NCBI GenBank assembly: GCA_950295325.1
Contig: OX485805.1
Coordinates: 41,093,501 to 41,157,500, forward strand
Origin: Polytrichum commune
Taxonomy: Eukaryota > Streptophyta > Polytrichopsida > Polytrichales > Polytrichaceae
Reading direction: 5' to 3'
DNA: 64,000 nt
The position numbers were made by a program, and so were the translations under genes. Positions 6,761-50,473 of this stretch are shown here, in pieces (position 1 is the first letter of the stretch; each line of letters opens with the position of its first letter). The notes beneath the pieces were generated by a model. The model was not told where the DNA came from and did no database searches. It worked only from the letters and a program-made list of their open reading frames with translations.

Positions 6761-6787
6761 CTTCAAGAATCACTCTCAAATCAAAAA

Positions 6788-7165
6788 ACACTATATTCGT
6801 TAAATTGAGACTTTTTGGGCATTTTGAGACATTCACAGAAATAAGAACAAGGATAAATGGAACACGTATTGGAGAAAGTTGTAAGATGCAAACACTTTGA
6901 AGCGGGTGTTTAGAACAAGAACCCCATTAATAACTCATATTTGGGATTGTTTAGGGCGGGCAATCCAAACCTTAGGCCAAGTTGAAGGGGAAATCTTAAA
7001 ACATTCATATTATCGCACAAAAACTTGTATGAATATGGTTTAGGTAGGGCAATCCAAACCATAGATCATATTGAAGGGGAAATATGTGAACCAATATAAT
7101 ATAACATACAAAATATTCCAAACTCATATTTGTGATGGTTTAGGTAGGGCAATCCAAACCTTAGA
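6788..7165 (+). repeat. Dispersed repeat R3, left copy, with 3 sub-repeats
   Basis: About 6788-6960 matches about 16385-16580 in the same orientation (shared words: GGCATTTTGAGA, GAGAA-GTTGTAAGATGCAAA, ACTTTGAA-CGGGTGTT). From 6950 three units of about 90 bases follow, each with 'TTTAGG-GGGCAATCCAAACC' then 'GAAGGGGAAAT'. The two copies bracket the ParB/methyltransferase gene at 8.3-14.2 kb. Confidence 0.55.
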
Positions 7166-7325
7166 CCATATGGAAGGGGAAATCATGTGACACTTATATT
7201 ATTGCAAAAAAAAACATACAAAGTGTGGCATGTAAAATGCATAGCATGCTAACACCACACATCCATTGGATAGTGCGACCCAAAATGTTCTTGCCTATGG
7301 TCCAAAACCCTACGCCTACTATGGC

Positions 7326-8231
7326 CTATCTAGCCTCGGAGACTACCTCTTTTTCTTTTGCTTCATTTTCTTTTGCTTTTTTTACTTTTGCCTCTTTTTC
7401 TTTTGCCTCTTTTTCTTTTGCTGCGGCTTCTTTTGCTCGCATTGCTTCAACATTCCTGAAAATCTCCGCCCCGCGACTATAGCCATTCTTGGGGTGACCG
7501 CCATCAATAACACATTTTGGATTCCGTCGGCCGCCCGAATTATACGACGAAGAATTCGAATACGATGAAGTGGACTGTCTTGCATTTCTGGTCATGGAGT
7601 AGAAACGCTCCAACTCGACGGACGCACTAGCCCGCATAGGTCTACGGGTGGGAGCAACCTGCAACGCGTGAATGCAAGAACACACGTGTTAGTTTAGGGA
7701 GGAAGACCCAAACGTGTCACACGTTCATTTTTTAAGTGCCGGATGATTGTAATGCGCGGTTAACCATGTTTTGGGGGGGGGGGGGGGGTTCACCTTGTCA
7801 CCGGGGGCGTTCCCGTCGGAGTCGGCGAGGAGGGGCAATGCGTCCCGCAAAGGAATAGGAAGGGTGCCACTCTTCGTAGGCCGAGCGTCCATCCGCAGCC
7901 GCCGTTGAGGTGTACTACTGCCGCCGGGCCGAGACGGGGACGTCCGGACGCATTTGCGATTTATGCCCTTGAGCGGCGACGGGGACGGAGATGGCCGGAA
8001 GATTTGCTTGGGTGGGGGGCTATCGACGACGCCGGCGTTGATAGGCTCCTTGGAGTAGTCGATGGTGGACGCGGCATCGTAGACGGTCTCGTAGAAGAAG
8101 CTCCCCAAGTTTGATTCGCTGACGATCTCAATCGAGGGCTCCAAACGCTGGCGCAAAAAAGGAAACAAAACAAAACCCAAGGGGAGGGGGGGAGGGGGGA
8201 GCATGTGAAAATCGATATACAATTGAGGCAT
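7326..8231 (-). CDS. Hypothetical protein, two exons
   Basis: Exons 8147-7794 (118 codons) and 7658-7326 (110 codons plus stop) join in phase 0 with an AAG/GTGAAC donor and a TTGCAG acceptor. An acceptor (TTTTTTGCGCCAG) precedes the first exon; alternatively translation could begin at the ATG at 8231 with no intron. The first exon is Ser/Pro-rich, with SSTPQRR and PSPSPSPLKG. The second ends in a Lys/Glu/Ala-rich helix of repeating KEKEAKE heptads, likely a coiled coil. It starts about 120 bases past the stop of the upstream ParB/methyltransferase/HAD gene on the same strand, so it is either a second gene or carboxyl-terminal exons split off from that gene. The intron next to the donor carries a run of 16 G. 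I do not recognise the family. Confidence 0.5.
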
Positions 8232-8266
8232 AATATATCACACACAATGGCACACCATGTAGTATC

Positions 8267-9079
8267 TCAAATGAGTTTATTATATTTCGCGTGAGCGTAC
8301 AACTCTCTGTACATATAGTCCTTCGGATCCATGTATCTTTCGCCTATCGGATTACAACTAAGGAACCGGGGCACGGGTAGTCCGCTCCCCACGAGCGTTT
8401 GAATGTACTTAAGTAGGTCTAACAAAAAGCGGTCTCGGACCTTCTCGACCGTCCACGTGGGGCAAACTATGAAGTTCGAGGTCGGGTTCAAAATGTTTTT
8501 GGAAGCGCTGTCGTCCACCATCAACGTGTTGTCACGGGTGGGGCGAACGTCGTAGGGACAGCCGACCATGGTCGGACGCTGGTCCCATACGACTGGCTTC
8601 AAGACCTTAAGAAATTGGTTTACGGCGGGGTTGTTGGGCTTCTTCACAACCCTGCCCTCGGGGGTGTATAATGTTTTACAAGAATCCTGTCCTAGGACCA
8701 AGCACGGGGGTTGGAGTCCCTTGAAGATGAACTCCACGACGGCCTGGGTATTCTCGGACTTCATGGAGCTCCAAATGATCACCCACCATTTGGATAGGGC
8801 GACCTGTAGGAAGCGCCGAAGGGACGGGCGGAGGTACACTAGCTTGCTTTTGATGTACGCGGGGGGTCCATCGTAGTTGGCGTCCTCGGGCTTGCAGAAA
8901 GGCACCGTAGGGACCCTCGGACAATGCACGCACTGGACAAGGACCCCGTTGAGGTCTAGCACCAGGAACCGGGTCTTGGGAGGCGAAGGTGGCGAGGGCA
9001 AAATCGGGGGGACCACCGCGTTGTCCTCCACACTCCTCGGAGAGGATCGGTGGGGAGCTGCGACGCTATGCTCCGAACC
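8267..9079 (-). CDS. Exon 6: FCP1/NIF-type HAD phosphatase-like domain
   Basis: After an acceptor (TCGCCGCAG) the exon encodes a Ser/Pro leader and then FLVLDLNGVLVQC, the position of HAD motif I. WWVIIWSSMKSENT and LMVDDSASKN follow, corresponding to motifs II and III of the FCP1/SCP (NLI-interacting factor) group, which dephosphorylates proteins such as the RNA polymerase II tail. In motif I the usual DxDxT is DLNGV, so the second Asp and the Thr are missing. Plant relatives with DLNGLL-type motifs are known, but activity is doubtful. Stop at 8267-8269. Confidence 0.75.
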   Translation of the reverse strand, partial: GSEHSVAAPHRSSPRSVEDNAVVPPILPSPPSPPKTRFLVLDLNGVLVQCVHCPRVPTVPFCKPEDANYDGPPAYIKSKLVYLRPSLRRFLQVALSKWWVIIWSSMKSENTQAVVEFIFKGLQPPCLVLGQDSCKTLYTPEGRVVKKPNNPAVNQFLKVLKPVVWDQRPTMVGCPYDVRPTRDNTLMVDDSASKNILNPTSNFIVCPTWTVEKVRDRFLLDLLKYIQTLVGSGLPVPRFLSCNPIGERYMDPKDYMYRELYAHAKYNKLI

Positions 9080-12000
9080 CTGCGGCGACGAGCGAGAGAA
9101 GGCGGACGAGGACTATGTTATGCTATGTCCATCTCAAGCAGAACGGAAATTTTGTGCAAACACAAGAAGAATTGGACCATTGGTGGCAACAAAAACATAC
9201 AAGGGGAACAACATACATTGGGACACGGATGCAAACATATGGGCGCCAAAAATAATAATTTTATTTTTACAAATCTCTATGTACAATTTCATTGGGGGGG
9301 GGACCGCGGTGAACGAGGGCATTCACACTACCCTAATTCTACATCTACAAAATTGGTTGCGCGCCGCCAAGGTCGAGCGTAGTCGAGTGCAGGTGAGACG
9401 AAGGGGATCGCGGGGGGGCACGTTGGGGGGAGGGGGAGCAAGTGTAGAGCATGGGGGGGGGGCAGGGGGTGTGCATTTCCTCCTAGCAAGGGGGACACGA
9501 CCACGCCAACAAGACAATGACCCAGGAAGTTTGGGTCGGTCGACCCAAACTGGGGAGGGCTCAGTGTATTACCTCGCCCTGGTCATGTCTCGACGATGTG
9601 GAAGCCTCCACCGTCCCCGCTGCCCCGCCTCTCTCGCCACCGCCTTCTCCGACGACGTCAGGAACCTTCTCCTGCAAACGATCGGCATCAGGCCCTTGTC
9701 CTAAACCAATCTCCGCATGTGCATCATGCATGCGTTCATCGATTTGGTTAGGAGTAGAGGTATCACCAGGCCCTTGCAGGCCTTCAACATCTAGCATGGC
9801 CGTGTCTAGTTGACACCCATGTTGGTCAAGGGAGGACTGCGCTGCAACGGGGTTTGGGTCGCCCGACCCAAACTGTCCTGCATCTGGAGAGGGCCCTTCG
9901 GACACTCCAGTGGATGGTGGGTTTGGGTCGGTCGACCCAAACATCCTGGGGTCGTCCGCTTGGTGAGGGGGCGCCATGACTATGGGGGGCCGAAGTGGTG
10001 GAGGGCCCAAAGGGGAGGAGGCTCCAGAGACGCGCCAGATGTTGGGGTCATCCACTTGCTGGACCGGCGCGTACGGAACTTGGTGGGGCCGAATCAAGTG
10101 CTGGAAGCTGAAAGACGATTGCGGCACAGGCTGCTGAGGGATGCTCTGCGGAGGGAAGCCGGGGGGCAAGTGCGGGAAGGAGCTGGAGGGAGCCACCACC
10201 AAACCTTGCACCCACATTCCTTGTATCACTTGTGATATCAATTCGGCGTGGGACGGAGGTTGGGCCATCGCCCTCTGTCGCTCCTGCTCCAACAGGAGAG
10301 CCCTCAGCTCTGCTACCTCGTTCCGCATTGAGGGCTCTTCAGCGGCAGCCTTCTGCAGACGGACGCGTTGCTCCTCGTCCCTCCTCATCTTCTCGTTCGC
10401 CTCCTCCACAGTCCGGACCTCGGGCTTCACCCTAACCATGCCAGCGAACGCTGTCGGGGAGGGGGGATCTGATCTGAGCCGTTTGGCGAGCTCAATATCA
10501 TCGTCGTCCTCGCTGCTTATGGCAATGGTCTCCTCCACGGAGTAGTCGCCATACAGCTTCTTCCCCTTCAACTTCCTCCTCTCCCTGAACGTGGCGGTCG
10601 CGTCCCTGGAGTACATGTCCCGTGCATCGTCCACAGTCAGGACGGGCACGAGCTTACTCTGCGGGGTTGCCGCCCGCATCGCCTTCTTCCGTTGAGGGGC
10701 TTCGGATTGTTGCGTGAAGCCCGTTGCCCCTTCCTCGACGTCGCCTTCCTTCTCCGCCTCCTCGTGTTCCTCTGCTTCCTCCTCCTCCTCCTCAACCTCG
10801 CCACCTTCTGTGCGGGACGGATTGCCCGGATGCAACCCGACCAGAGGTTCGGGAACTTGGGTCGTGGCCCTCATGGCCATTTCCTCCGGGTTGATGCGCC
10901 TCACCCTATCAAGAGGGTTTTCGCCACCCTGAACAACCTCGTCGATGTAGCTACCCGGGATCCAATCGAGGATGTCCATCTTCTTCGCCAGCGATTTCTG
11001 CACCCTATAAAATGGCAGATCGCCATCCTCTATGTAGGAGTATATATTCAGCCCCGACATCTACACAATCCAAGTTATAGGGAAATTAGAATTTGTCGAG
11101 GCAGTCACATATACAAGACTAAGTGAAATGTGTAGTTTGGGCCGGTCGACCCAAACCTGCAAAAAGCCTAGTTTGGGTCGGTCGACCCAAACCTGCAAAG
11201 AGCCTAGTTTGGGTCGATCGACCCAAACCTGCAAAGAGCCTAGTTTGGGTCGATCGACCCAAACTGCTTACGAGCTATAGAAAGTCACTTACCATAGCAG
11301 CATAGACAGGTTTTGAGCCTCCGAAGACGTTGAAGATGCAGTCCCCTCTCCTCGTCAGCGTCCTCATCATTCTCATGTAAAATTCCATCCGCAGCTCATC
11401 TAAAGGATAGTTCGCGTATTTAGCCTCGTCGTAGAGGCACTTGTTGGCACCCAACCCTTTTGGAACTTGGAAGAGTTTGTCCATCCGGGATATAGGGTGG
11501 TTCGGCACCTTCAACAACTCCGCTTTGTACACGAAGTACAAACACAAGACGTTGACGAACTTGGTCTTCTTGTCCCTCAACGTCGTGTAAGTCCCTTCCG
11601 CCGGTGCGGCGATGTAGTGAGACTTGGAGACTGCATACTCCGGCTGCAGTTTCCGGACAAGCTCGTACACCTGCTCCGCCCTCCTATCCTCGACTATCCA
11701 AAGCCAGATATCTACCTCCCTGAACTTAGGGCTTGCATAATCGACGAACTTAGATAGGAAGGGGTCATAGAAGAGGGTGCTCATTGTGCCCCTCAAATGA
11801 GCTTCCAGGAATATTCCTGAAATCAATCATCCCAAAAGGAAAGCGGTCCCTTGCTTTCGTCCTTATCGCCATTCTGGCGTCCTGACCTGGCCAGCCCTGA
11901 ATTTTCAAAGGCTCGAAGGTGACAAGGTTGAAGTAAGCGTCCCCTTCAAACTTGACAATCTTCTTCTCCTTGATGAAGTTCGAGAACGCACGCGCTGTGT

Positions 12001-14167
12001 GATCCGGAAGCGCCCGGTTCTTCCCACCCTTCACCATCTTGGCCCGCAAGAAGTCGTCCCCCGCTTCCCTTATTAGAGCCGCCATGGAGGCACTGGTGAA
12101 CTTATATTCATCTTTGAATGCTCTCCAGTTAGCCTCATGAACCTCGTCGTCCACGACAATATTCCTCTCTGGCACCAATTTATGCAGCTCCTGCACGATA
12201 GTCGTCTTCTTTTTCCTGTTCTCCGTCCATTCCTTCATGGTGTAGCATGAAGGAACGAAGGATTTGGGCTTTTGGAAGACAATCTTCGGGTGCACCCAAC
12301 ACCTCTTCGCCGTGGGTGCCACGTGCAGGATGTGCGATACCGCCTTCTCCACCTCCGTCTCTGACAGACCTTGAAGAGTTCTAAAGAACTCTCTCACGAG
12401 AGGTTTCATCTGCTTGAAGCGCGAGGCCAGGCTAAAGAAAGCGCCAGTGTCGGGGTCGATCAAATCCCCCGTCTCGTGCTTTTCAAACACGGTTTTCCAC
12501 TTCCTCCAAACTGAGTCCGATGCTGTAATCAAGTAAATCTCCCCCTTGAGGTCGCTGTATTTCTTTTGCTTGTGGCTCGAATTATCAATGGAGGAGAATT
12601 TGTTGATCATTTGGTATTTGAAATCCTGCACGTGAATGAAACAGAACATTTGAATGCGTGTTAGATATGTACATGTGATTTCCAAACCATATCATGACCA
12701 ACATCTACAACAAGAGTTTGGGTCGATCGACCCAAACTAAAAAAAACACAAGACTGCAACAGTTGTTTGGGTCGATCGACCCAAACTAAATAAACAAGGC
12801 TGCACCAGGAGTTTGGGTCGGTCGACCCAAACAATACTCACCTCCCACTTGGGATTCTTGTCCTTTGCATTCTCCCTCTCCTTGGGAGGCCTACCATAGA
12901 ACTCCCACACCTCCCGCGAGGCCATGATATTCCTTATCCAGGAAGCTTGGTAAGCCCTCTTCTTGTTTCCCATATTGAAGTACCGGGAGATGTCGCTGAG
13001 CTTGGTCTCGTCGTCAGACCACACCACCAGTGCCTTCCAAACCTTCAGCTTTTCCTTCTGATTGTTGGGATCATCCCACTCATTAATGAGTTGGATTTTC
13101 TTGGATGCCTCCACGCTGTGTTGGCCGTCTATCAGCCAAAAATCGCCCTTCTGAATTGTTGGCCACATTTCAGGTGTAGGCATTTTCTTGAGACCCTGTG
13201 GCATCACTACAATCGTTTGCCTGTCGTCTTTAAACTGCTCGCAAACGATCTGCGCGATTATCCAGTCAACGTAGGCGTCCTCCTTTGCCCGGACACACTT
13301 CTCCGGTGGCGCTAGATGGCACTGGCTGATGTTCACGTCGAACTTGAAATCCCTGCCCATGAAAAAACAGTGGGAGCATTTCATCGTGAAATTGTTCACA
13401 ATTTTCTACAGCTCCCCTGCATCCACCTCTTCGCCTGGCTTCGGCATGCGCATCTCCGGTGAGACTGGCTCGTCAGTCATCACAGATGACTCTCTCGCCT
13501 TCTTGGATGGAGTTGTTTGACGGCTCCCAGAAGGTGTAGGTGTCTCACTATTCGTAGGTGTTTGGGAGGGAGTGGTCCTACGCGAGTCAGCCGGTACTGG
13601 TAGCGGCATCCTCACCGATTGAGGTCTTGACGACCCTGCTCCTTCCTCTGTGGGAGCTTTCCGCCTCACAGGTTGCTGTGATTTGGTTTTGCTTTGCAGG
13701 CCCCTGTTCAGCACGGTTATTGCATGTTTTAGTTTTGTGAACCGGCTTGAGACCTTGGTATTCGATGTACTCCCATCGATAAATATTGTCTCCGGCTTGA
13801 TAACTTCCGGTTCGACACATGACTCTTTTGCATAGAGTGCGTCGAAAGGCTCGGAGAACTGGTGCATGAACATATGCGCGTTCTGCACAGCCGAGTTCTC
13901 GAGGATGACGTCGGTATAGTCTCCAAGAGACTGTACCGATGCGACCTCCCATCCCGCAAGAGTCGCCCAGGTGTGTTTCTCCACGGTTCCCACCTTGACA
14001 ACAAAAATCATTTTGTATGTTGAGGCTTTGACTACTTGAATAGACCAAGCGAGGACAAGCCCGTCCTTAGGGGAATAGGAGTCATCCTGCGGGGTTTCGT
14101 GCTCCTGCCACAACATGTCCGGCGCAGGCATGAACCACCTTTCGCCGGGTCTTTTCTTTGGAGCCAT
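8267..14167 (-). CDS. Six-exon gene: ParB-like / DNA-methyltransferase-like / FCP1-like fusion
   Basis: Proposed exons: 14167-13616, 13405-12842, 12625-11887, 11816-11293, 11060-9573 and 9079-8267 (TGA). All five junctions agree in phase and have GT-AG ends, for example TCG/GTGAGG, GAG/GTGAGT, ATG/GTAAGT and GAG/GTAATA donors. The reading frame is open over about 1559 codons. The start ATG follows an acceptor (TTTCTTACAG), so a 5' leader intron is likely. Order: unknown amino-terminal domain, Pro/Ser/Thr linker, ParB/DGQH-like domain (about residues 200-370), helical region, beta-class N6/N4-methyltransferase-like domain (about 620-820), acidic and Pro-rich linker, HAD phosphatase-like domain (about 1325-1550). 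The weakest junction is the first: without that intron a TAG at 13408-13406 separates exon 1 from exon 2, and two genes would be the alternative. The function is unknown. A role in binding or marking DNA for a mobile element is inference from its domains and from the palindromes in its introns. Confidence 0.7.
9529..9550. repeat. 22-bp palindrome, intron 5
   Basis: Arms GTTTGGGTC and GACCCAAAC around the tetranucleotide GGTC. It lies about 22 bases inside the intron from the 5' splice site at 9572. Confidence 0.9.
9573..11060 (-). CDS. Exon 5: end of methyltransferase-like domain, acidic and Pro/Gln-rich linker
   Basis: The first 40 residues complete the methyltransferase-like domain. A tract of about 20 mostly Glu residues, a Lys/Arg-rich predicted coiled coil (NEKMRRDEEQRVRLQKAAAE...LLLEQERQRAMAQ) and a Pro/Gln/Ser-rich tail follow. 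Two copies of the 22-bp palindrome (9852-9873 and 9921-9942) are translated in frame as FGSGDPNP and FGSTDPNP. The donor GAG/GTAATA at 9572 is strong. The tract resembles disordered linkers of nuclear proteins. Confidence 0.65.
9852..9942. repeat. Two in-exon copies of the 22-bp palindrome (9852-9873, 9921-9942)
   Basis: Centres are GCCC and GGTC; the arms are unchanged. Both keep the reading frame of exon 5 on the minus strand and add the peptide FGS(T/G)DPNP. Confidence 0.9.
11135..11264. repeat. Palindrome array, intron 4 (4 copies, 36-bp period)
   Basis: Copies start at 11135, 11171, 11207 and 11243 and are separated by a constant 14-base spacer (CTGCAAAGAGCCTA-like). Centres are GGTC (twice, the first with a mutated arm, GGGCC) and GATC (twice). 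The array ends 28 bases from the 5' splice site of the minus-strand gene. Confidence 0.92.
11293..12625 (-). CDS. Exons 3-4: central region and methyltransferase-like domain
   Basis: Exons 12625-11887 and 11816-11293 are separated by a 70-base intron with a CAG/GTCAGG donor and a TGATTTCAG acceptor, phase 1. The carboxyl part reads TRRGDCIFNVFGGSKPVYAAM and, across the next junction, GLNIYSYIEDGDLPFYRVQKSLAKK. This resembles the carboxyl motif of beta-class DNA methylases (pGDlVlDPFxGSGTT..A, then GR.yiGiE...y...a..rl). The catalytic DPPY motif may correspond to YDPFL (about residues 635-639). FGGSK in place of FxGSG and DPFL in place of DPPY suggest weakened or lost catalysis. The central 200 residues are basic and helical and not recognised. 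Confidence 0.6.
12716..12832. repeat. Palindrome cluster, intron 2 (3 copies)
   Basis: Copies at 12716, 12765 and 12811 have centres GATC, GATC and GGTC. The last one ends 9 bases from the 5' splice site at 12841. Confidence 0.92.
12842..13405 (-). CDS. Exon 2: ParB / DGQH-like domain
   Basis: The motif FWLIDGQHSVEASKKI (Asp277-Gly-Gln-His280 of the model) matches the ParB/sulfiredoxin fold signature 'DGxHR..A', with the usual preceding strand (DFKFDVNISQCHL) and following helices. The family binds or cuts DNA or uses CTP/ATP. In phages and bacteria ParB-like domains are often found directly upstream of N6/N4 methylase domains, the order seen here. The Arg that usually follows DGQH is Ser. 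A Cys pair (MKCSHC) precedes the domain. Confidence 0.65.
13616..14167 (-). CDS. Exon 1: amino-terminal domain of unknown function
   Basis: It begins MAPKKRPGERWFMPAPD, continues with a mixed alpha/beta-looking stretch of about 150 residues (LVLAWSIQVV, MIFVVKVGTVEKHTWATLAG) and ends in a Lys/Arg/Ser linker. If the exon is not spliced at 13616 the frame runs on through a Ser/Thr/Pro-rich tract to a stop at 13406. No known family was recognised. The basic start could be a nuclear localisation signal. Confidence 0.55.
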
Positions 14168-14193
14168 CTGTAAGAAAATAATGTGCAAGGTTA

Positions 14194-14675
14194 GTTTCGG
14201 TCGTTCGACCCAAACATCTATGACATGAATAGGTTTAGGTGGATTGTGTATTTTTATATTTCAGCATCATTTGTAATGATAATAAGAATGTTGTGATTAT
14301 TGGGTGGATTTGCATTTTATATTGTTTGTGACATGCAGGATTCCTTGATACTTTTCCTTGATACATTCCTTGATTATTATTTTGGGTTGATGTGAATTTT
14401 ATATTGATGCAAAATATCATGGATTTCTTTATGAGTTTATAATTAGAAGACTTTGTTTGGGTCGCTCGGCCCAAACATGATGCTTTGTTTTGTGTTTGGG
14501 TCGAGCGACCCAAACAAGGGGCTGTGTTTGGGTCGAGCGACCCAAACAAGGGGTTGTGTTTGGGTCGGTCGACCCAAACAAGAGGCTGTGTTTGGGTCGG
14601 TCGACCCAAACAAAAGGCTGTGTTTGGGTCGGTCGACCCAAACAATAGGCTGTGTTTGGGTCGTCTCCCCAAACA
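14194..14675. repeat. Palindrome array upstream of the ParB/methyltransferase gene (8 copies)
   Basis: One degenerate copy at 14194 (centre GTTC) lies 26 bases from the acceptor next to the start codon. Seven more copies at 14455, 14494, 14526, 14558, 14590, 14622 and 14654 have a period of about 32 bases and spacers such as AAGGGGCTGT. Centres vary: GCTC, GAGC (twice), GGTC (three times), and a damaged last copy. The array lies in the probable leader intron or promoter. Confidence 0.92.
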
Positions 14676-14699
14676 GTATTATTTTAATATATTTTTTTA

Positions 14700-15180
14700 A
14701 CTTGGCATGTAGCATATACAATGCTTATGCATTGTGTATGCTACAACACCGTGAATCTACAAACACATATTGGTTAAAATAAAATACAATACCTTTCAAA
14801 GATGTTGTGCAGACAATTTGGAGTAGAGCAGGTTGTTCTTCCAATAATTCTCAATATCAAACAAACTGTGAGAAAGTTCAATGAGAAACTTTCAAACAAC
14901 TATCAACTCTCTCAAACAGCTCTTGGATCTCTCAACCAACTCCTGAATCTCACACAGAACTACTGAATCTCTCAAAAGACTTCGAAATGTCTAAACTAAC
15001 TCCTGAATCTCACACACAACTACTGAATCTCTCAAAAGACTTCGAAATGTCTAAACCAATTCCTGAATCTCACACACAACTACTAAACCTCTCAAAAGAC
15101 TTCGAAATGTCTAAACCCACTCCTGAATCCCTCACAAAACTACTGAATCTCTCAAACGACTTCGAAAACTCTCAAACAAC
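14700..15180 (+). repeat. 58-bp minisatellite (about 14930-15180)
   Basis: Four imperfect units carry the words CTCCTGAATCTCACACA, CAACTACTGAATCTCTCAAA and AGACTTCGAAATGTCTAAAC. An open frame of 134 codons across it reflects the repeat and is not a convincing gene. Confidence 0.85.
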
Positions 15181-15591
15181 TCTTGATACTCTTAAAGAAC
15201 TCTTGAATTTCACAAGCACTCCTAAAACTTCCAGTACAAACACCTGGACCTCCCAAACAGAAGCTTTATCTCCTACACAATGTTCTACTAACTTCCCTCA
15301 GCACTTTCCAACACTCTTCAACAGTCTTGGACTAATTTCACACTCACGCTCGAAAACCCTCCTCCGTATGTTTCTGTTTCTTTCAAAATAAACCCTAACT
15401 TCCAAGATTGCACTGCGGCTATTCTATTGTAGAGCAAGAGGAAGGAGGGAAATAGAAGAATTAGAAGAAAGCAAAACGCAGGTGAATGTGAAGAAAACCC
15501 ACACCAAGCCTGAATCGCCGTGGCGCTTTGCGAAAGCGGCGCTTCAGGAGAGGCGGCGCTTCCAAGCAAAGCGCGGAGCGTAAGCTTGGCG

Positions 15592-15593
<2 letters not shown>

Positions 15594-15645
<52 letters not shown>
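15594..15645 (+). repeat. (GA)n microsatellite
   Basis: About 26 GA units. Ser/Leu-rich open frames on the minus strand are artefacts of it. Confidence 0.95.
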
Positions 15646-15649
<4 letters not shown>

Positions 15650-16380
15650 ATGAAAAAATGTGACGGTTGGGGTTTTGTTTGCCTCGGGAATTGGCCCCCA
15701 ACCGCATGAATAGGGTGCCCACAGGTTTAGGGCACCCACGGAAACAGGGTTACAGGGAACCCTAAAACCTAAAGCTTGACTCTAAACCCTTAGCGGGCCT
15801 ACCTCTTTAAGAGTACATAGGCTATTTGCCTCATAGCATAGGTTGCATTCTACAATATCAACTTTTTGTAAGTTGAAAACCTTTTGAGTTTGTAAGTTCC
15901 TCGCCAATTGCCTTCAAAACTAATTTTTAGTAGGTTAAAATCCTTCATATCTTTTAATGTTGTAGGTTTTAAAATCAAAATTTGAGTACTAAGTGGGATC
16001 CTTGGCATGAATTGAACCTGGCTAAGCCTTTCACCACGTTTGAAGGCCAAGGATTAACCAAGTCTTTTTTAAAGAGTTGATTATAAGTTATGAAAGGTTG
16101 CTAAAATTCAAATGAGTTCAAGGGTGAAAGTTCTCACCATGTTCTCATTCAACCTCTACTCTTCCTGCAAGATATAGCCTAAAGATATGTACTTAGGCCA
16201 ACTAATTTCCCAATTTGAAGAAGGATGAATGGCTAAAATCCTCTCTTTTAAAAAAAATTTAGGCAAAATTTCCTAAATGTTTTTTATCACATAGGTTGAT
16301 ATCCTATGTTTTTAAATTGTCCATAGGCTCTTTGTCCTACACTTTCAAAATTTTATAGGCTAAGTCACTAATTTTGTAGG
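15650..16380. other. No gene recognised
   Basis: Unique-looking or degraded sequence between the microsatellite and repeat R3. Only short open frames without motifs. Confidence 0.4.
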
Positions 16381-16384
16381 CTGC

Positions 16385-16640
16385 ATTTGTTTTAATCGGT
16401 ATATTCATTAATTTGGGATTTTTTCGGCATTTTGAGAAAGTTACAAATATAAGAACATGGATAAAATCGCACGTACATTGGAGAATGTTGTAAGATGCAA
16501 ATACTTTGAAACGGGTGTTCATATCAAGAACGCAATTAAGATCTCATATGAAGATGGTTTAGGTAGGACGACCCAAACATTACACTATGTTGTTGTGGTT
16601 CATATATTAATTTGAGAGAAGAGAAAATCTCAAATTAGCA
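16385..16640 (+). repeat. Dispersed repeat R3, right copy, followed by a hairpin
   Basis: It matches 6788-6960 in direct orientation. At about 16600-16635 follows AATTTGAGA - loop - TCTCAAATT, a 9-bp stem. The hairpin and its CATATATTAATTTGAGA context recur at about 23400-23440. Confidence 0.55.
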
Positions 16641-17149
16641 AATTTTAGGGTTTAGGTTCTTTTGGACCCTGCTCTAAACCCTTATTAGTTTTTTCAAAAG
16701 AACTATGGAGTACCCTAAGGTGCTACATAAAATGTGTTATTCTACAAAACTAACCATTTATATAGCCAGCGCATTCTTACAACAAAACTTTATGCTAAAC
16801 TAATACTTATCCCCTACTTACATGACACCATACCCTAAATTTTCCAAAATCATTGAAGGCATTGGTTTCTCTTTTGTTTGAGCATGTTAGAAAAACCATA
16901 TAATTGCGTTATATTTAACGATGTAACCATTCACATTTAGTCTTTACCAATGATGCCAACAATTCACACGATATTGAATGAAAAAAAAAAGATTACACAC
17001 ACCCCCCAACATGTGGAACAATTTAGAATAATTGAGTGTGGAGCCTAATAAATGAATACCTTCCCCAACTGCATTTTGCAAGGGTTTTGAAATGCACGAT
17101 CCTTATTTGAAAATGCGAACATGCTCAAGTTTCAAGTACATCCCTTAGA

Positions 17150-18000
17150 TCGTGACTTTCACGAATCACATAGTCGCCAATAAATCATGGTTCATGATAT
17201 ATTTAATATATAGATTGTGATATAAGAGTAAATGGGATAAGCACAACATCAAATGAAGCCATTCAAGCAATCATGTTGTTATTCCCTGTTCCTTCCATGT
17301 ATATTAGATGATGGCGCAAGATAAAATAGATGTTGTTTGTATATGGGGGCATCAGTGAACCACAACTACATTTGGTGTTTAGGGTTTAGGGTTTAGGGTT
17401 TAGGAGATAGGAGATAGGGTTATAACATATTAATCTATCCAATGTCAATGTATAACATTGTCTTACTCGTGAGAAGAGTCTTATAGGAAGGTTATAGTGA
17501 AGACGATGTTGATTATGTTAATTTGTTATTTGAGATGTTTAAATGCGATATATTGATTGGTCGTGTGTTTATTCAAATAACATGAAATATTGTGGATGTT
17601 AATAGGGGCTATGGGTCCAACTTTGGATGTTTCGCTCACTTTAGGGAATCACATATTAGTCGCTAATAAACCATCGTTCATGATGTATTTAATATATGGA
17701 ATGTCATGTAAAAGTAAATCGGAGAAGCACAACATCATGTTGTTATTCATTGTTCTCTCCACGTGTATTAGATAATGGAGGAAGATATAACAGATATTGT
17801 TGCATAATATTATGAAGAAGAGTCTAATTGGAAGGTCATAGTAAATACAATCTTGATCATGTTAATATGTTATATGGGACGTTTAAACATGATATCCTAA
17901 TTGGTTTTGTATTTAGTCAATGCGTATTTCATGTTGTGGATGTTATAAGGGTTTAGGGTCCAATCTTGGATGTTTTGCTCTCACACATTAGTAAACTTGA
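17150..18000 (+). repeat. Degenerate tandem duplication
   Basis: Two diverged copies of about 350-490 bases: 17155-17640 and 17645-17990. Shared words include TCATGATGTATTTAATATA, AGCACAACATCA, CATGTTGTTATTC, GAAGAGTCT and TTGGATGTTTCGCTC-like text. No gene is visible. Confidence 0.65.
17378..17404 (+). repeat. Interstitial telomere-like TTTAGGG repeat
   Basis: Nearly four TTTAGGG units, the plant telomere repeat. A shorter run occurs near 18139-18153. These are common internal motifs and do not by themselves mark a chromosome end. Confidence 0.85.
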
Positions 18001-18893
18001 AGTGAACTTGAGGATGGATTCAAGTAACATTAAAAGATTGAACTAGAAAGGGACATTGGTAGTTAGTATCCCCTTAACAACGTCCACATACGTTCGTCAT
18101 TGCCACTCTTGCATGCGAGATAATAGAGCAAGGTTCTAGGGTTTAGGGTTTAGGGGGGACAAATAAATAATTCTATTCATCATGACAATGGCCTCAAGCC
18201 TTGGAAACTCTCTCATAATTGCAGCCTCCAAATGGCCCAAACCCCACCTAAATAGGTTTACACTTGAAAGCATTGAATGGAGTTGTGTCTGGGTCTACAT
18301 ATTGGTTAAAATATACCTTGATGATACTTGAAAAAATTAATGTGGCCGCCACCCTTCCTCCCAATGGCGTATGTCATATCCACACAAAACAAAACAAATA
18401 GATTAAATAACATAGACTAAGTCATATGACGGCTGGGGTATCATAGGGGCATTGATAGATGCGCATTTTTCTATTATAAACAGAAAACGGGGAATTCTGT
18501 CAGGAGGTTTGAAATAACCTCTGCAAGAGAAGAAGGCGGGGAAGGCATCCAATGACTAAGTCTGGGAAGCGGAGGTGGATAGTATAAAGGGGCGCACCCC
18601 CCAAAAGTCGGTCCTTTTTTTCTCTTCTCCCGCTGTCGAATTCGTAGAGAGAACTCTTAGTAGGAGCTGTACTTCAAGGTTCGTGCATGCTGCCGTTCAT
18701 GAGCACTTATCCATAGCATGCAAGTTCATGAGCACCTATCCACACCATGCAACCCCACCGTGAACTTTGCAATGAGCTCAAATTCAACACACCACGCAAT
18801 ATCCGCCGCATTATACGCCGGATTTTGTGGTGTACTTGGGCGAACCTTCACCTTTACACTAGTGTTGGCGGGTTTTGAGTCTGACCCTATGAG
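18000..18893. other. No coding gene recognised; upstream region of the DUF7869 gene
   Basis: Mixed sequence between the duplication and the palindrome array. It may contain the promoter and leader exon of the downstream gene, but no element could be fixed with confidence. Confidence 0.35.
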
Positions 18894-19653
18894 GTTTGGG
18901 TCGACCGACCCAAACCTGTCCACTAGTGTGTTAGGGTTTATGTCTGACCCTTAACATGTTTGGGTCGGTCGACCCAAACCCCAACCCCAGTGTGTTAGGG
19001 TTTTTGTCTGACCCTTATCAGGTTTGGGTCGACCGACCCAAACCTGTCCACTAGTGTGTTAGGGTTTATGTCTGACCCTTGTGAGGTTTGGGTCGGTCGA
19101 CCCAAACCCCTACCCCCAGTGTGTTAGGGTTTTTTCCTGACCCTTATCAGGTTTGGGTCGACCGACCCAAACCCCTACGTGGTGTGGGTGGATGTACCCT
19201 TGTGAGGTTTGGGTCGGTCGACCCAAACCCCTACTCCAGTGTGTTAGGGTTTTTTTCTGACCCTTGTCAGGTTTGGGTCGACCGACCCAAACCACTACCT
19301 GGTGTGGGTGGATGCACCCTTGTGAGGTTTGGGTCGGTCGACCCAAACCCCTACCCGAGTGTGTTAGGGTTTTTTCCTGACCCTTATCAAGTTTGGGTCG
19401 ACCGACCCAAACCCCTACCTGGTGTGGGTGGATGTACCCTTGTGAGGTTTGGGTCGGTCGACCCAAACCCCTACCCCAGTGTGTTAGGGTTTTTTTTCTG
19501 ACCCTTATCAGGTTTGGGTCGACCGACCCAAATCACTACCTGGTGTGGGTGGATGTACCCTTGTGAGGTTTGGGTCGGTCGACCCAAACCCCTACCCCAG
19601 TGTGTTAGGGGTTCAGTCCGACCCTTATGAGGTTTGGGCCGGTCGACCCAAAC
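18894..19653. repeat. Palindrome array upstream of the DUF7869 gene (13 copies, alternating orientation)
   Basis: Copies start at 18894, 18958, 19022, 19086, 19151, 19207, 19271, 19327, 19391, 19447, 19512, 19568 and 19632. The centre alternates GACC, GGTC, GACC and so on; these are reverse complements, so successive copies are inverted. Only the last pair breaks the rule. Spacing alternates 64 and 56 bases from 19151, giving a 120-bp higher-order unit with constant spacers (CAGTGTGTTAGGG..CTGACCCTTAT and TGGTGTGGGTGGATG). The array ends 200 bases before the start codon of the next gene and probably lies in its leader intron. Confidence 0.95.
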
Positions 19654-19852
19654 CTGCACCAAAATAATTCCTGGAACTTGTTTTGGACTTGCACACAGTG
19701 TTGGGAGTTCACATTGTAGTTGTGTTGGAAATGTCTTCATCCTCGGTGTCCCCATTGATCATGGTGTCTTGCATTTTCCGATATTTGATTCTTTTGGACC
19801 CTTACATTCTTTCCATGTGTGTTGAGGTTTCATGTGCATGTGTGTAGGCGCA

Positions 19853-22800
19853 ATGGAGGGAGTTGGTGGAAGAGGGGATTCCTTCTCTGACGACATGGGC
19901 AACACCCAATCTCCGTCTGGGGATGAGCTAGACATTGTTGGGGAGGATAGTTTTGATGACAGTGCAGATGAAGGTGACTTGGGGAGTCCTTCGCCATCTG
20001 CCCCTTCTTGCCCCACTGTGGAATGTGCTGGGCTTTCACGAGCTTCATGGGTGAATTTGGATGTAATACTTGTTAATGACAGTGGAGTTGCTGTGGCGGA
20101 GGGTATTTGTCGTAACACACATCCACAAGATTGCATTGATGAAAACCCCCTTGGCACCGAGGACGTTGGAGTTGTTATATTGGAATCACTCGTACATTCC
20201 GAAGTTAATCCAACTCATAGGTTCTCGTTGCGAAGGTGGCCGTTGAGGAATGTGACAATTGATGGGGTTAATTTGCATGAGCATGAGCGACGACACATCC
20301 AAATCCAAGAGGAGCTCCAAGCAAACATTCGGCCACGCAAAGGCCTACGGAAGTACGATACATTGGCACGTCCTACTCCGTCTGCAAATGAGTGTAAACG
20401 TCAAAGGTTGCTTTGTGAGGAGTCCATTAGAGAAGTTGCCACAAAGGATTGTTGTGTACATCGTTGTTGCCAATTGTTCCCAAGGGATAAATTGAAGGCC
20501 ATCCGCGAGGAAATGTGGCTTGGAGATTTCCGTCTAAGATCCACCAAAAAGCTTGATGTCCATAGGGCGATACATGTGAACGGAGCGGGTCGCAAGGTCA
20601 TCACCCTTGAGAGCATAGACGTGTGTTGTACGGCATGGTACATCATTCACGGTGTGTCGAAAGCGGAATTTTATAGACAAGCCGCGTATGCCAAGGAAGG
20701 CCGCCGGTCCCATCACCATGGGAATACGGGCTTAAAGAAACCAAGGGAAGCAACGAGACAAGCAACCGCCACTCTGGCAACCATCATTGTCCCCCTTGCC
20801 GATGCAATGTCACACAAAACACGCACACTCGCAACCGGTGAAAAGGTTGTGGAGAAGGTTCTTCCTACAGGCACGAAATGGAAAGACATATTGTTGGACG
20901 TAAACGCAGTTGGCGAGAAGGCTGGGTTGGACCCTATTTCGTTGTCGAAACTGAATGCAATAAAAAAATCTCACTTTAGCGAATACATCACAAAAAGACG
21001 AGGCGACAAATTTGCGCGTTGTTCTAAATGCGAGAAGTTGAAACGCCTTCGAGATGCACACACGATGGGGACAGAGTCCTATGCCGCACATCAAATGAAC
21101 TATTTCAAGCATGTGATCATGCAAGAGGCACACCGTAATGATTACTACACAAATAGAGCTTTGTCCATCTCTAGGCCTTTGGAGGTCCTTACAATCATCC
21201 ATGACAAAATGGACCATGCCAAAACAACCTCACCATGTTTTGCAAATCGAATCAAAGCCACGGACGGCCTTTTTAAGCTTCCTGTATCGGTTACAGGTGA
21301 TTTCGATAACAATTGCATTGCATTACCTAAACACAAATTTGTGCTTTAGGTTTGTACTTGGGACCATAGATGTACAGCAGGTGAATTTTTTGGTGTCATA
21401 GTTGAATATTAAACCATTGCGTTGGCTTTGCAGGGATGATTGCACATGGACATGGTGATGTCAAGTATGCTCATTATGCTCTTGATTTGTATCCGGCGGA
21501 TTCAAACCACACGATAGGGTCATTTGCAAAGCTTTTACGTGATTTGGAGAAACCGCCGTCCTATTCATCAAGATTGTTATTTGAAAACTCGGGATCAACA
21601 CCTCTATATGAAGCGGTCTTGGATGGAAGAGATGTATGCGTGCACTCCTTGCCGGAGCCACCAAGTGAAGATGTGATTGCCAAGAATTTGCCCCCAACTC
21701 TGCGTGTCCAATTGGACAATTGTGCGAAGGACAATAAAAGTAGATATGTTTTTGCATATTGGTCGTTGTTGGTTGCGAAAGACATTTTCAAGGAGGTTTT
21801 TGTGTCCTTTCTATTGGTAGGCCACACGCACGACGATATCGATGCATCTTTTGGGCGGTGGAGCATGAAGTTGCGCGAGGAGGATTTTCCAACAATCCCA
21901 TTGTTGATGAAGTCGTACATGGATTTGGAGAACATTCCCGTCATCCCCCATATGATCGAGGAGGTTCCCGACTTCAAGGCATTTATAGAACCGTATATTC
22001 GAAGCGGAGCTCACCGATTGATCGGACATACGAAGGCACAACAATTTCGGTTCTACGTGCGTGACGATGGTGTCCCCGCCATGCAATACAAGTTGTTGTG
22101 CACGTCACAAGACTGGAGCCCGCCGGAGGGTCTCCTTGTATGGCGTGTTGATGGGGAGGGAAGGACGATGTTGCCTGACGGAGAGCCTAAGCCTTGCAAA
22201 CCAATACCCATGAAGAATTTGGAGGACATTTGTAAAGGCATATCAGGCTTCATACAATATTGGGAGAGTTTGAGGGTAGCGGATGTTGGTGGATCGTGTT
22301 GGCTTCGTTACGGAAGTTGGATACAATATTGGACACGTGTTCGTGGCGCTTTGGCAAACCTTCATCAAGATACACCCCTTACTTTAAGGCATGGGTTTTG
22401 GCCACAAACACGTGTCAATGTACAAGCTTCGGAGGCTAGTCTTTTGGGAAATGGAGAGGTTCGAGAGGAGTTTGATGTGGACGACCATTACGTGGGGCCT
22501 GCTAGTAGTCGTCCGCCACCATCTTTCCGCATTGCAGTGGATTGTCATGAAGGTTATATGTTCATTTTGCGTCCTGGAGATGAGACATATGCAAAGCCAG
22601 TGTGGGTGGCAAGAGCTTTGTCCAATCCAAATTTTGTAACTTCCAGCCCTCATTTTCGACAAATACAAGTAGAGTACTACCGACCGACAACACGGAATGA
22701 AGATGTTGTTCGGCATTATACAGGCTGGGATACAAACCAACACTTTCGGTGGAAGGTGGATTCTGAGCACGGTCCATCTTGGGTAGATACAGATTCCATA

Positions 22801-22920
22801 TTCATAGCATGGAAACCATGGAAAAATCATAGTGGATCAATGTCCATCCCTCAAAAGTACATAACTTTTGCAAAAGACAACCTTGCTCGGATCGCAAAAG
22901 AAGCAACCCACGTTGAATGA
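19853..22920 (+). CDS. DUF7869-type transposase-like protein, two exons
   Basis: Exon 1 is 19853-21296 and exon 2 is 21434-22920. The donor ACAG/GTGATT and acceptor TTTGCAG/GG join in phase 1 across a 137-base intron, giving SVTGMIAHGHGDVKYAHYAL and 976 residues in total. The ATG at 19853 directly follows an acceptor-like TGTGTAG, so a leader intron is likely. Exon 1 holds an acidic amino end, a Cys pair (RCSKC, about residue 389) and the segment LTIIHDKMDHAKT (about 452). Exon 2 holds RVQLDNCAKDNKSRYV (about 573) and FLLVGHTHDDIDASFGRW (about 610). These are the hallmarks of the DUF7869 family found in many plant, algal and animal repeat-associated proteins. The three acidic blocks fit an RNase H-fold DDE/D transposase; that mechanism is my inference. 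The frame is intact, so the gene is recent or under selection. Confidence 0.8.
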
Positions 22921-23460
22921 GAAGTTGGTAGGATTGTGTTAGCATGATTATAGTGTAATATGTAATTCGACAAATATATATTACTCATATGTGTGCTCCT
23001 CAAACTTGGGGCAAAGTTTGGGTAGAGCTTGCGAATGCTATATTGTTTGGGGTTGGATGAATATCCATTTACTATATTTCAATGCAGTTGTGAAGTTCAT
23101 TTTTTTTATTAAGTTTGGGACTAAATTTTCCAGTGAAGAAAAATGCATTTATTGCATGTACTTTGTATGTTGCAATGTCTATATTTTATTGACCATGCTA
23201 ATAATAGAAATCATTTTATATGTTTCTTGGGTGAAACTAGTTTGGAGTGCTCTACCCAAAGTGTTTTTGTTGATGAAGTTGATGTTGAGTGCTCTACCAT
23301 ATGTGCTTATGTACACACATAATAGATTTGGGATATTAGAACATATAATATATTTGAGATTGTTCGCAATATAGTTTCGGAACACGGAATGTTGTTTGAT
23401 CCATATATTAATTTGAGACTAGAGAAAGTCTCAATTTAACGAATATAGTGTTAAAAGTAA
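22921..23460. other. 3' flank of the DUF7869 gene with inverted motifs and hairpin
   Basis: CAAAGTTTGGGTAGAGC near 23010 is mirrored by GCTCTACCCAAAGTG near 23250. At about 23400-23440 lies AATTTGAGA - loop - TCTCAATTT with flanks matching about 16595-16640 in direct orientation. These could mark the ends of an element containing the DUF7869 gene, but the matching stretch is only about 45 bases. Confidence 0.4.
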
Positions 23461-32690: not shown

Positions 32691-35600
32691 ATGCAGGATA
32701 TGGAGAAACTCGAATTTCCAAAGAGTTACACGCCGGCCAACTTTGACGATGACGACATAGGCTGCGAGTGCGCATCGTGTGCATTCCAGCAGAAGACGAG
32801 TGTTCTCGACATCATGCAGGACTACCAATCCTCCGTGGAGTCAGACCAAAAACAGGTCGCCGCGTATACAATGTCGGAGCACTACAATACCTCAACTACC
32901 TCCTCGGAACGCTTCTTCTCGGCCGCAACCCCGGTACTCACCTTGCCATTAATTATGTTGTGAGATAGACTACATGTAATGTAAGACTTCTTTACATAAT
33001 GACTTAGAAAAATAGAGGATTACCTATGCGGTGACACAAAGGGCACCTTGCACCTGATGAGTGACCAGCAAGTCCAGTCATGATGTGTCTGGCTTGTCTT
33101 TTGGGTACCTTCATCCTTGGCAATGTGGTTCTTAGTAGTTACCTCCCATTTACGTTTTGCGATTCGAATTTCGACCAGATCTTGAAGCAGCGGGAGCTTC
33201 TGGACTTCCTCACACGCATCGACACATCCGCCATCGCGTCACCTACTCCACCTGCGTTTCTCGTTGTAGGCTCAAAACACTCCGGCAAGAGCTCCTTCAT
33301 CAACAGCGTCTACAAATTGGTGTACAACGAACCGGGAGCGCTCATCCGGAGAGCAGAAACAGGCTATCACGGTACAGTGAGTAGTCTCCATACACAGCCG
33401 CCGACCACTTTGCATTATAAGTTCTTTCCTGTGTTGCGCTCGCCGCTGAGCTCCCTGCGAGCGCCAATATTCACGTTGATCGACACCCCTGCGTTGCAAG
33501 ATAGCCTCCGAGAGGACGAGCTCTTCAATTTGCTGCTCAATGAAGTTGCCGAGTCATATGACATGGCCACGCTCTTCCCGGAGTGCGTCATCCTGCTTGT
33601 GAACTCCGCGCAGTTCGACAAGGAGAAGGCCAAGTTTGATTGGGGTGGCGGTGTGAGAGTGCCAAATATCTCAAGGTTCCTCCGAGAGGAAGGTAAAGAA
33701 AGCATGCACATCGCCGAGTTATTCTGTGTCTGTTTTCAAGTAACACTGCAAAAGGGCCCTAAAATTTATCATCTCCTCCCCGTATCGAGGATGGCTTTAG
33801 ACGGAACTATTGTGAAAGTGGTATATCTAGAAAACTCGTAGAATATGGACACTGGTGATGAACTTTGGAGCCCCAGTGGGGTGTGGTGAGCTTGTCTGTC
33901 TGCAAGTTTGTCTGCAAGTAACACAAAATTCTCTTGTCTGTCTGCAAGTTTGTCTGCAAGTAACACAAACTTCTCTTGTCTGTCTGCAAGTTTGTCTGCA
34001 AGTAACACAAATTTCTCTTGTCTGTCTGCAAGTTTGTCTGCAAGGAACACAAACTTCTCTTCTCTGTCTGCAAGTTTGTCTGCAAGTAACACAAACTTCT
34101 CTTCTCTGTCTGCAAGTTTGTCTGCAAGTAACACAAACATCTCTTGTCTGTCTGCAAGTTTGTCTGCAAGTTACACAGAATTCTCTTGTCTGTCTGCAAG
34201 TTTGTCTGCAAGTAACACAAACTTCTCTTGTCTGTCTGCAAGTTTGTCTGCAAGTTACACAGAATTCTCTTGTCTGTCTGCAAGTTTGTCTGCAAGTAAC
34301 ACAAACTTCTCTTGTCTGTCTGCAAGTTTGTCTGCAAGTAACACAAAATTCTCTTCTCTGTCTGCAAGTTTGTCTGCAAGTAACACAAACTTCTCTTGTC
34401 TGTCTGCAAGTTTTTCTGCAAGTAACACAAAATTCTCTTCTCTGTCTGCAAGTTTGTCTGCAAGTAACACAAACTTCTCTTGTCTGTCTGCAAATTTGTC
34501 TGCAAGTAACACAAAATTCTCTTCTCTGTCTGCAAGTTTGTCTGCAAGTAACACAAAGGGCCCTGAAGTTCATCACCTCTGCCCAGTATCTAGGAGTCTT
34601 GTGCATGGCACTGCTGTGACAAAGTAGTATATCTAGAGGAATAGTAGATTTGGGACATAGGTGACGAACTTTGGGGCCCCAGGAAGGCGTGGTTAAGTTA
34701 GGGTGAGTTTCCATGTAGGCCGCTCTACCACCAGATTCTAGTGGGAATATAGATGCCACCAGGTGGGATCTACATTTCCACTAGAATAAGGTGGGTGAGT
34801 GGTCTACATGGGAACTCACCCTTAGCACTTCGCCAGACTATTCTTTGTCTGTCTGCAAGTTTGTTTGCAAGTAACACAGAGGGCTCTAAAGTTCATCACC
34901 TCTGCCCAATATCCAGTATCGATGTAGATGGCACTATTGTGAAAGTGGCATATCTAGAAAATTCGTAGATTGGGGACATTGGTGATGAACCTTGGGGGGC
35001 CCCAGTGGGGTGTGGTAAGCACTTCGCCAGGCTATTCTGTGTTTGTCTGCAAGTAACAAAAAGGGCTCTGATGTTCATCATCTCTGCTCAGGAAACTTGT
35101 ACATGGCACTGCTATGAAAGTGGTGTATGTGGACAATTCGTGGATTTGGGACATTGGTGATGAACTTTGGGGCCCGGGAAGGCGTGTTTAAGTTAGCACT
35201 TCGCCAGGCTATTCTTTGTCTGTCTGCAAGCTTGCTGCAAGTAACAGGGAGGGCCCTGAAGTTCATTACTTCTACCTAGTACTTAGGATGCCTGTAGATG
35301 GAGCTATTGTGAAAGTGGTATATCTAGCAGTTTCATAGATTTGGGACAGTGGTGATGAACTCGGGGCCCCATTGAGGTGTGGTTATATTTAGCACTCGCT
35401 AGGCTATTCTGTGTCTGTCTGTAAGTCATTTACAAGGGCCCTGAAGTTCATCATATCTCTCCCAGTATCTAGGCTGGTGTGGATGATATTGTAACTGGTA
35501 ATAGTGATACATTCTACCAAGGACAGAGGTGATGAAACTTTTGGGCCCTTGTATAAAGTAAGCACTTCGCAGATCTACCAGTCCGTGTCTGTCTGCAAGT

Positions 35601-47310: not shown

Positions 47311-47737
47311 GGGGCTAATATAAGATCATTGTCTATCCTATCACGCCACGAACTGGGCGAAGTCCTACGCCTTACGGCTAGTCTCAAGAATGTTGTTAGA
47401 AGCGAGTCCAAAGGCGAGGAGTAGTGCGAATACAATCGAAGTAATGGCCTTCGCCTGAACTTTAATCCCTGGCGATGTTCGCAAACCTCTGGTGAACACG
47501 TCAAATCAGAGTAAGATCCTACACCTTAAAAATTACAAGGGGCTCAAAATCTATCTGCGCATTCCGAATCGCACCGAAAACGAGAAGAGGAGCACACAGT
47601 GCATTGAGGGACCTCGAATCTAAAGAAAAAGGTGCAAACAAAGGTTCGCAATAATAAAGAATTTACTCAATTGAGAATGTACTGTACACTGTCGGGCACC
47701 TTTCTACACAACACCTTGAACTTCAAGGCCAAACACT

Positions 47738-50270: not shown

Positions 50271-50473
50271 TTCACAGGCAAACTTGAAGAACACGAAAAC
50301 AGCTTCAAAGAAAATGCAGAATGAGCAACGTAGAGGAGCAGCGTGAACTTCCAACACAGAAGGGGAGGGGAGGCAGAAACTCAGAGTCAATAGAGCATTT
50401 ATTGTACACTATGGTAACACATCAATTTTCCGTCGCAACTCGAACTAAGTTACTTGACTAAACCGTTAATCAT

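Follow-up and report, generated by a model that had tools for sequence, protein, structure and literature searches.

A moss DNA transposon with palindrome arrays that change type together with its ParB-like protein

We analysed a 64-kb stretch of the Polytrichum commune genome (contig OX485805.1, positions 41,093,501 to 41,157,500; hereafter the window) and found that its positions 6787-23452 are one recently mobile cut-and-paste DNA transposon. The element carries a transposase gene, a divergent gene for a ParB-like protein, and arrays of a 22-bp palindrome upstream of both genes and inside the second. Among relatives, palindrome type varies with the clade to which the ParB-like protein belongs, and for this reason the palindrome most likely serves as a binding site for that protein, which would bind it as dimers. 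We favour the reading, at a probability of about 0.6, that the element carries a self-encoded ParB-like regulator together with arrays of that regulator's sites, in an anti-silencing arrangement resembling VANC of Arabidopsis.

A recently mobile element with two linked genes

The transposon was delimited by its terminal inverted repeats (TIRs), its target site duplications (TSDs) and its copies:

6783..6786: 4-bp TSD AAAA, left, flanking the left TIR
6787..6814, plus strand: left TIR, 28 bp, AACACTATATTCGTTAAATTGAGACTTT, 28/28 identical in nine further pairs
6787..23452: DNA transposon, 16.7 kb
19853..21296, plus strand: DUF7869 transposase exon 1
21434..22920, plus strand: DUF7869 transposase exon 2, after a 137-bp intron (21297-21433)
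23425..23452, minus strand: right TIR, 28 bp, perfect
23453..23456: 4-bp TSD AAAA, right, flanking the right TIR

The 28-bp TIR was without mismatch in all ten left/right pairs examined (the window and nine further), and a perfect 4-bp TSD was present in nine of the ten. TSDs differed by copy, with AAAA in the window and TCAT, CAAG, GTAT, CTAT, CAAA, TCAT, CAAG and ATAA in the eight matching further pairs. The remaining pair (L033/L034) combined perfect ends with a mismatched TSD (agta/acag) and was counted as a failure; copy-to-copy recombination or an altered flank may explain it. Two of the TSD-matching pairs spanned ∼24 and ∼27 kb, presumably because of nested insertions. We searched the 408-Mb assembly, which includes seven large sequences of 42-78 Mb. 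The left 2.2 kb occurred at at least 40 places (the window and 39 others, at 96-99% identity) distributed over all seven large sequences, and the right 532 bp at at least 40 places with 98-100% identity, both numbers being lower bounds since the genome searches cover the best-scoring candidates. TIRs, TSDs and at least 40 near-identical copies of each end together establish recent mobility.

A reading of the window made from its letters alone (the sequence-only reading) had proposed one mobile system at 7326-22920, bordered either by a pair of direct repeats, R3 (6788 and 16385), or by outer sequences, and had named copies with common termini as its check. The mobile system and the common termini were borne out by the nine further pairs, and the outer sequences proved to be the borders. 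The proposed span was too short, and the R3 pair was rejected because the copy noted at 16385 is part of a nested insertion, the miniature derivative of a related element. This derivative (∼260 bp, 16394..16652, plus strand) consists of a left portion that aligns to the element's left end, joined to a right portion that aligns to its right end; it contains one degenerate palindrome, at 16557.

The transposase gene is spliced and open, as the sequence-only reading had it, and encodes 976 aa matching the DUF7869 profile (PF25273; 151.5 bits, cut-off 26, E=2.6e-44). The same match was obtained for 32/32 aligned relatives, in all of which D421, D424, D546 and D588 (numbering of P0012) are invariant. 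Exon 2 was stop-free in 74 of the 87 copies scored, the best 87 of 1867 candidates, and the named relatives are mosses (Physcomitrium patens, Ceratodon purpureus). Among the matches listed, 48/87 transposases had a divergent ParB-like gene at most 30 kb upstream, against ∼1.2 expected by chance, and three further pairs were otherwise arranged. The two genes are thus linked, divergent and part of one element.

Arrays of palindrome A in and around the ParB-like gene

Palindrome A, GTTTGGGTCG-NN-CGACCCAAAC, is a 22-bp dyad (GTTTGGGTCGNNCGACCCAAAC) of two 10-bp half-sites around a variable 2-bp centre. Its sites and the parts of the ParB-like gene are arranged as follows:

9529..9942: palindromes A in or beside the last ParB-like exon (9529, 9852 and 9921)
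9561..11060, minus strand: ParB-like last exon, with a stop at 9561 and a low-complexity tail
11135..11264: palindrome A array in ParB-like intron 11061-11292, 36-bp unit, four copies
11293..12625, minus strand: ParB-like exon stretch conserved in relatives, with a probable frame change near 11.79 kb in the window copy
12716..12832: palindrome A array in ParB-like intron 12626-12841, ∼46-bp unit, three copies
12842..14167, minus strand: ParB-like first exon stretch, ATG at 14167, motif GDFWLIDGQHS
14194..14675: seven palindrome A sites, mostly on a 32-bp unit, upstream of the ParB-like gene
18894..19653: 13 copies of palindrome A arrayed on a 64/120-bp unit, upstream of the transposase

The sequence-only reading had placed arrays just upstream of both genes and few copies elsewhere. 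Both statements were confirmed and extended, since arrays also fill two ParB-like introns and the last-exon region, and all 30 copies detected at ≤1 mismatch (25 of them exact) lie within 9529-19653, with none outside the element in the 64-kb window. No exact copy arose in 50 dinucleotide shuffles of 9001-20000. Compared array against array, flanks were 10-36% identical whereas palindromes were 92-97% identical, showing that what the arrays share is the palindrome and not some longer repeat. In 125 A sites drawn at ≤3 mismatches from 16 loci, many of which are near-copies, every arm position reached ≥97% consensus while the centre varied (11 of the 16 dinucleotides occur). The exact palindrome was counted 9231 times in the genome and its reversed control not once; viral contigs contained none. 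The sites at 9852-9942 are in frame within the last ParB-like exon and encode the peptide FGSxDPN.

The ParB-like gene of the window could be read open through five exons only by assuming two extra short introns of 57 and 70 bp. These were rejected, as the relatives that cover them translate both stretches (4/4 and 6/6). For this reason the window copy most likely carries two lesions, a TAG in frame (13406-13408) and a change of frame close to 11.79 kb, and the claim that both genes are spliced and open holds for the transposase and is not borne out for this copy of the ParB-like gene. The sequence-only reading had further described the gene as a ParB/methyltransferase/HAD fusion. A link to ParB is suggested by the GDFWLIDGQHS motif and by one weak profile match (phrog_1033, E=0.04, in one of eight members); a Pfam profile scan of the protein gave no family match, and searches against solved structures no useful one. 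The methyltransferase part is not borne out, with no such family among profile matches at E up to 1, nor in a second scan at E up to 10 from which most matches above ∼0.1 were filtered. Fusion to the HAD part is doubtful, as described below.

Palindrome type follows the ParB-like clade

A profile of exons 3-4 recovered 73 ParB-like relatives, many of whose open frames run on into the next intron. These read-through tails reveal the palindromes. In one clade, whose members mostly share 58-79% identity with the first query, the tail, if long enough, encodes palindrome A in its three frames (SLGRxTQT, FGSxDPN, VWVxRPK). In relatives 34-37% identical it encodes, from the same introns, FTNxRS, LRTxVRK and YERxFVN. 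These three frames decode to one dyad, palindrome B, TTTACGAACG-NN-CGTTCGTAAA. Palindrome B was thus deduced from peptides before it was counted in DNA, where 2909 exact copies were found in the genome and none of the reversed control. In 103 B sites the core ACGAACG-NN-CGTTCGT was at ≥94% consensus and the outer three bases at 68-91%.

The two types did not mix. All ten clade-B loci had four to eight B sites each (≤3 mismatches) and no A, and all eight clade-A loci, the window included, had one to four A sites each and no B; eight arbitrary loci (72 kb) had neither. This is the association of palindrome and gene that the sequence-only reading had proposed to test, specified here as one with the ParB-like clade. 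A tree was built from 64 rows, namely the window and 63 of 74 relatives (11 under 400 aa were dropped; P0004, P0005 and P0180 lie outside the set). Labels A/A' were carried by 18/36 rows of clade A and B/B' by 18/24 rows of clade B, and the tree needs one A/B change over the 36 labelled rows; the tool warns of long branches. With unlabelled rows treated as a state of their own, labels need 23 changes, against a shuffled mean of 30.8. Exons 3-4 were stop-free in 80 of the 95 clade-A copies scored (the best 95 of 1225 candidates, the window copy lying outside that list).

Some tails bear variants in which both arms are changed: FTDARP (P0167, P0168), YGRASV (P0165), and FGPVGPN and FGPTGPN (P0006). 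At the DNA level, one such arm pair is GGGCC/GGCCC.

A complete B-type element keeps the ends and exchanges the dyad

We identified a complete element of the second type:

C1:49675985-49692660: B-type element, 16,676 bp, TIRs identical to those of the window at 25/28 positions at both ends, TSD TCAT

Its gene order and orientation are those of the A element, with 44% identity in the NIF-like stretch (see below), 34% in the ParB-like protein (to P0001) and 63% in the transposase. Its 34 B dyads (≤3 mismatches) occupy the five places that hold A dyads in the window element, and it has no A dyad. The best local alignment of left ends between A and B elements stops after ∼48 bases. Ends and transposase were therefore kept while the dyad changed with the ParB-like protein, which is our main argument that this protein, rather than the transposase, reads the dyad. 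The argument comes from one complete B element and ten partial B loci, and supports an association of palindrome type with the ParB-like protein and not with the transposon ends. In frames matching the last-exon palindrome peptides of A, the B element has B-type peptides (LRTRVR, TNARS), so that even coding sites seem to follow type; this observation covers window positions 9852-9942, P0003 and L047.

A candidate third palindrome type

A distant query, P0176, led to two old copies, L048 and L049, both with stops and both free of A or B dyads at ≤5 mismatches. L048 has, on both sides of the exon, five sites (≤3 mismatches) of a candidate third type, palindrome C, GTTTAGCTCG-NNN-CGAGCTAAAC (in full, GTTTAGCTCGNNNCGAGCTAAAC). 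At this threshold palindrome C was absent from 70 kb of arbitrary DNA, from the window and from 25 other element loci. A threshold of ≤6 mismatches was too loose, yielding nine matches for two patterns in 70 kb of arbitrary DNA. We regard type C as weaker than A and B. Eight further loci matched by the distant query (L050-L057) were rejected as a new type; they are A-type.

Interpretation and rival explanations

By analogy with VANC, we infer an anti-silencing function. The ParB-like protein made from the element would load on its arrays, those at the two promoters as well as those within its own gene, and once loaded would keep the element transcribed against host silencing. A NIF-like phosphatase encoded beside it may assist through transcription or chromatin, a guess from its family name. 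More tentatively, moss DNA transposons may have independently gained a nucleation system of the ParB/parS kind, whose protein loads on its own palindromes, spreads and blocks silencing; lineages would re-tool protein and palindrome together (A, B, C), giving regulatory groups that do not cross-react among the copies of one genome.

The chief rival, possible if somewhat doubtful, is ordinary transcriptional control, in which the ParB-like protein binds the palindromes as an activator or autorepressor and has no effect on methylation or chromatin. Arrays that stand upstream of both genes and follow the ParB-like clade suit such a regulator, but in A and B alike two introns and the last-exon region are also filled, which a promoter operator does not need, and ∼30 sites per element would seem to exceed an operator's needs.

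Binding by the DUF7869 transposase is unlikely. This protein is linked to the palindromes and likewise differs between A and B; the TIR, however, is nearly constant between the two types (25/28) while the palindromes are wholly different, and no palindrome with 0-1 mismatch lies near either end. The left end does have three imperfect subterminal repeats like GTTTAGGTAGGGCAATCCAAAC (6949..7159), which differ from the palindrome at four positions and may represent transposase sites or palindromes that have decayed; at ≤3 mismatches the right end lacked them, as did both ends of the B element.

It is still less probable that elements captured sites of a host factor, for example those of replication elements, enhancers or insulators. 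Such sites might come as tandem arrays of a CG-containing dyad, but dependence on a host factor would not explain why A and B differ within one genome in step with the ParB-like clade. Plain tandem satellites or hairpins spread by slippage, with no protein partner, are very improbable: several arrays are indeed regular tandem repeats, yet arrays with unrelated units have only the palindrome in common, its arms are near constant while its centres vary, and A and B elements keep the places and change the sequence.

Several observations weigh against a ParB-like regulator that reads these palindromes to counter silencing. Homology to ParB is weak, and no DNA-binding domain was identified in the protein. 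The transposase differs as well between A and B (63% identity), and so keeps a small probability of being the binder. The A/B split is a single event in the tree, with long branches between, and 28 of the 64 rows are unlabelled (18/36 in clade A and 6/24 in clade B), many of them with short tails. Tail signatures were defined post hoc, although that of B was subsequently put to the test in the DNA of the genome. Three tails, those of P0007, P0125 and P0128, bear another signature (SFGRTPET, FSRTPES, SFSRPPET); this group, sister to clade A, perhaps represents a further palindrome type. Type C is known from one decayed locus, L048, and L049 has a single differing dyad, ATTTAGGTTGGCACAACCTAAAT, with no C at ≤5 mismatches. 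Finally, the observed/expected CpG ratio was 0.09 and 0.14 in the spacers of two A arrays, a strong depletion that is weaker in A introns (0.42 and 0.36) and nearly absent from the B transposase array (0.84). CpG depletion was abandoned as a sign of methylation history, as the spacer ratios give mixed signals.

The sequence-only reading had proposed the arrays as binding or control sites, and the switch of palindrome type with the ParB-like clade supports that proposal, though it does not prove it. Self-encoded anti-silencing remains the reading that we prefer.

Comparison with known systems

In En/Spm, an older case, the element-encoded protein TnpA binds sites that are repeated within the element itself, whose silencing it reverses. 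Its sites are subterminal, unlike those described here, which lie at promoters and in introns. The bacterial site parS is a palindrome with GTTT...AAAC ends. Palindrome types A and C have such ends, and the GDFWLIDGQHS motif is a second likeness to bacterial ParB/parS; unlike that system, ours shows weak homology and is eukaryotic, spliced, carried on a transposon and provided with tens of sites. Maumus, McDaniel and Carey, the authors of the Lanisha superfamily in 2020, are reportedly moss workers.

The closest parallel is VANDAL21/VANC, as outlined in the accounts drawn on here (PMC5735166; PMC10398659): a DNA transposon with an accessory protein and with tandem short motifs in its own introns and upstream of its genes. 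In the Arabidopsis system VANC removes DNA methylation from copies that have its motif, and motifs occur in tandem upstream of VANA as well as within introns of VANC and VANB (PMC5735166). Motif and protein are also described there as varying jointly from one related element to another, as A and B do here. Unlike VANDAL, the present transposase matches DUF7869 only and not a MuDR family, and the ParB-like protein has no Pfam family; the motif is a 22-bp dyad, so far known from sequence, instead of a directional motif of nine bases. With a different transposase family, a different accessory protein and a different motif, the present elements would represent an independent system of the VANC kind. 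Fungal DNA transposons with a TET/JBP dioxygenase likewise have an accessory gene with a presumed role against silencing; that accessory protein is a different one, and the part of the account used here does not mention site arrays (PMC12730594).

That account places EnSpm, Chapaev, Lanisha and others in a CMCT group, characterized by C(2)C and H(3-4)H between the second D and the last E, by TSDs of 2-5 bp and mostly by CA..TG ends (PMC12730594). As a candidate member, the window element has a 4-bp TSD, which fits; its ends are AACACT..AGTGTT, and its transposase has CxxC at 390 and HxxxxH at 450. Assignment to KDZ (Zisupton), for which the same source gives an 8-bp TSD (PMC12730594), was rejected on the 4-bp TSD. 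The Lanisha superfamily (Maumus, McDaniel and Carey 2020, as reported in PMC12730594) is similar in being cut-and-paste and in belonging to a group that makes 2-5 bp TSDs, and may, on a comparison by description, already cover the DUF7869 transposase lineage. No description of the present system was found in the literature, searched by titles and the openings of abstracts.

VANC is the best-described sequence-specific anti-silencing system of transposons, and the elements reported here bear on how such a protein and its site change together. Two element types in one genome, with similar ends, related transposases, the same gene order and a swapped protein-site pair, provide a ready-made set for the study of specificity switching, to which the natural both-arm variants (FTDARP; GGGCC/GGCCC) add. 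If the link to ParB is true, a ParB-type protein has been put to use by a eukaryote on a transposon.

The NIF-like gene and other features of the window

8267..9112, minus strand: NIF/CTD-phosphatase-like (HAD) open stretch, by profile match

The stretch matches the NIF profile (PF03031; 51 bits, cut-off 21.8) and was open in all eight copies examined, the window included. Copies aligned by BLAST gave 26 variant sites, 12 nonsynonymous and 14 synonymous; with an expected ratio of 2.83 this is ∼0.3 of neutral, from few sites. The stop that separates it from the ParB-like part is shared with P0003 (GEVIH/GEVMH), and for this reason it is probably a gene separate from the ParB-like gene.

Within the element, a separate tandem repeat of ∼16 units (20/60-bp unit) occupies 14892-15223, upstream of the ParB-like array. 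Elsewhere in the window, 10-11-bp repeats of the GGGTAGCGTT type extend across 400 bp (1430-1837), and a 42-bp tandem repeat of ∼16 copies with 94% matches lies at 33891-34557. Two direct copies of a segment at least 300 bp long, 98% identical, occur at 47737-48036 and 50473-50772, 2.7 kb apart. Two long plus-strand open frames follow at 52952-54595 (547 aa) and 54974-57253 (759 aa), the latter in a region of strong GC skew.

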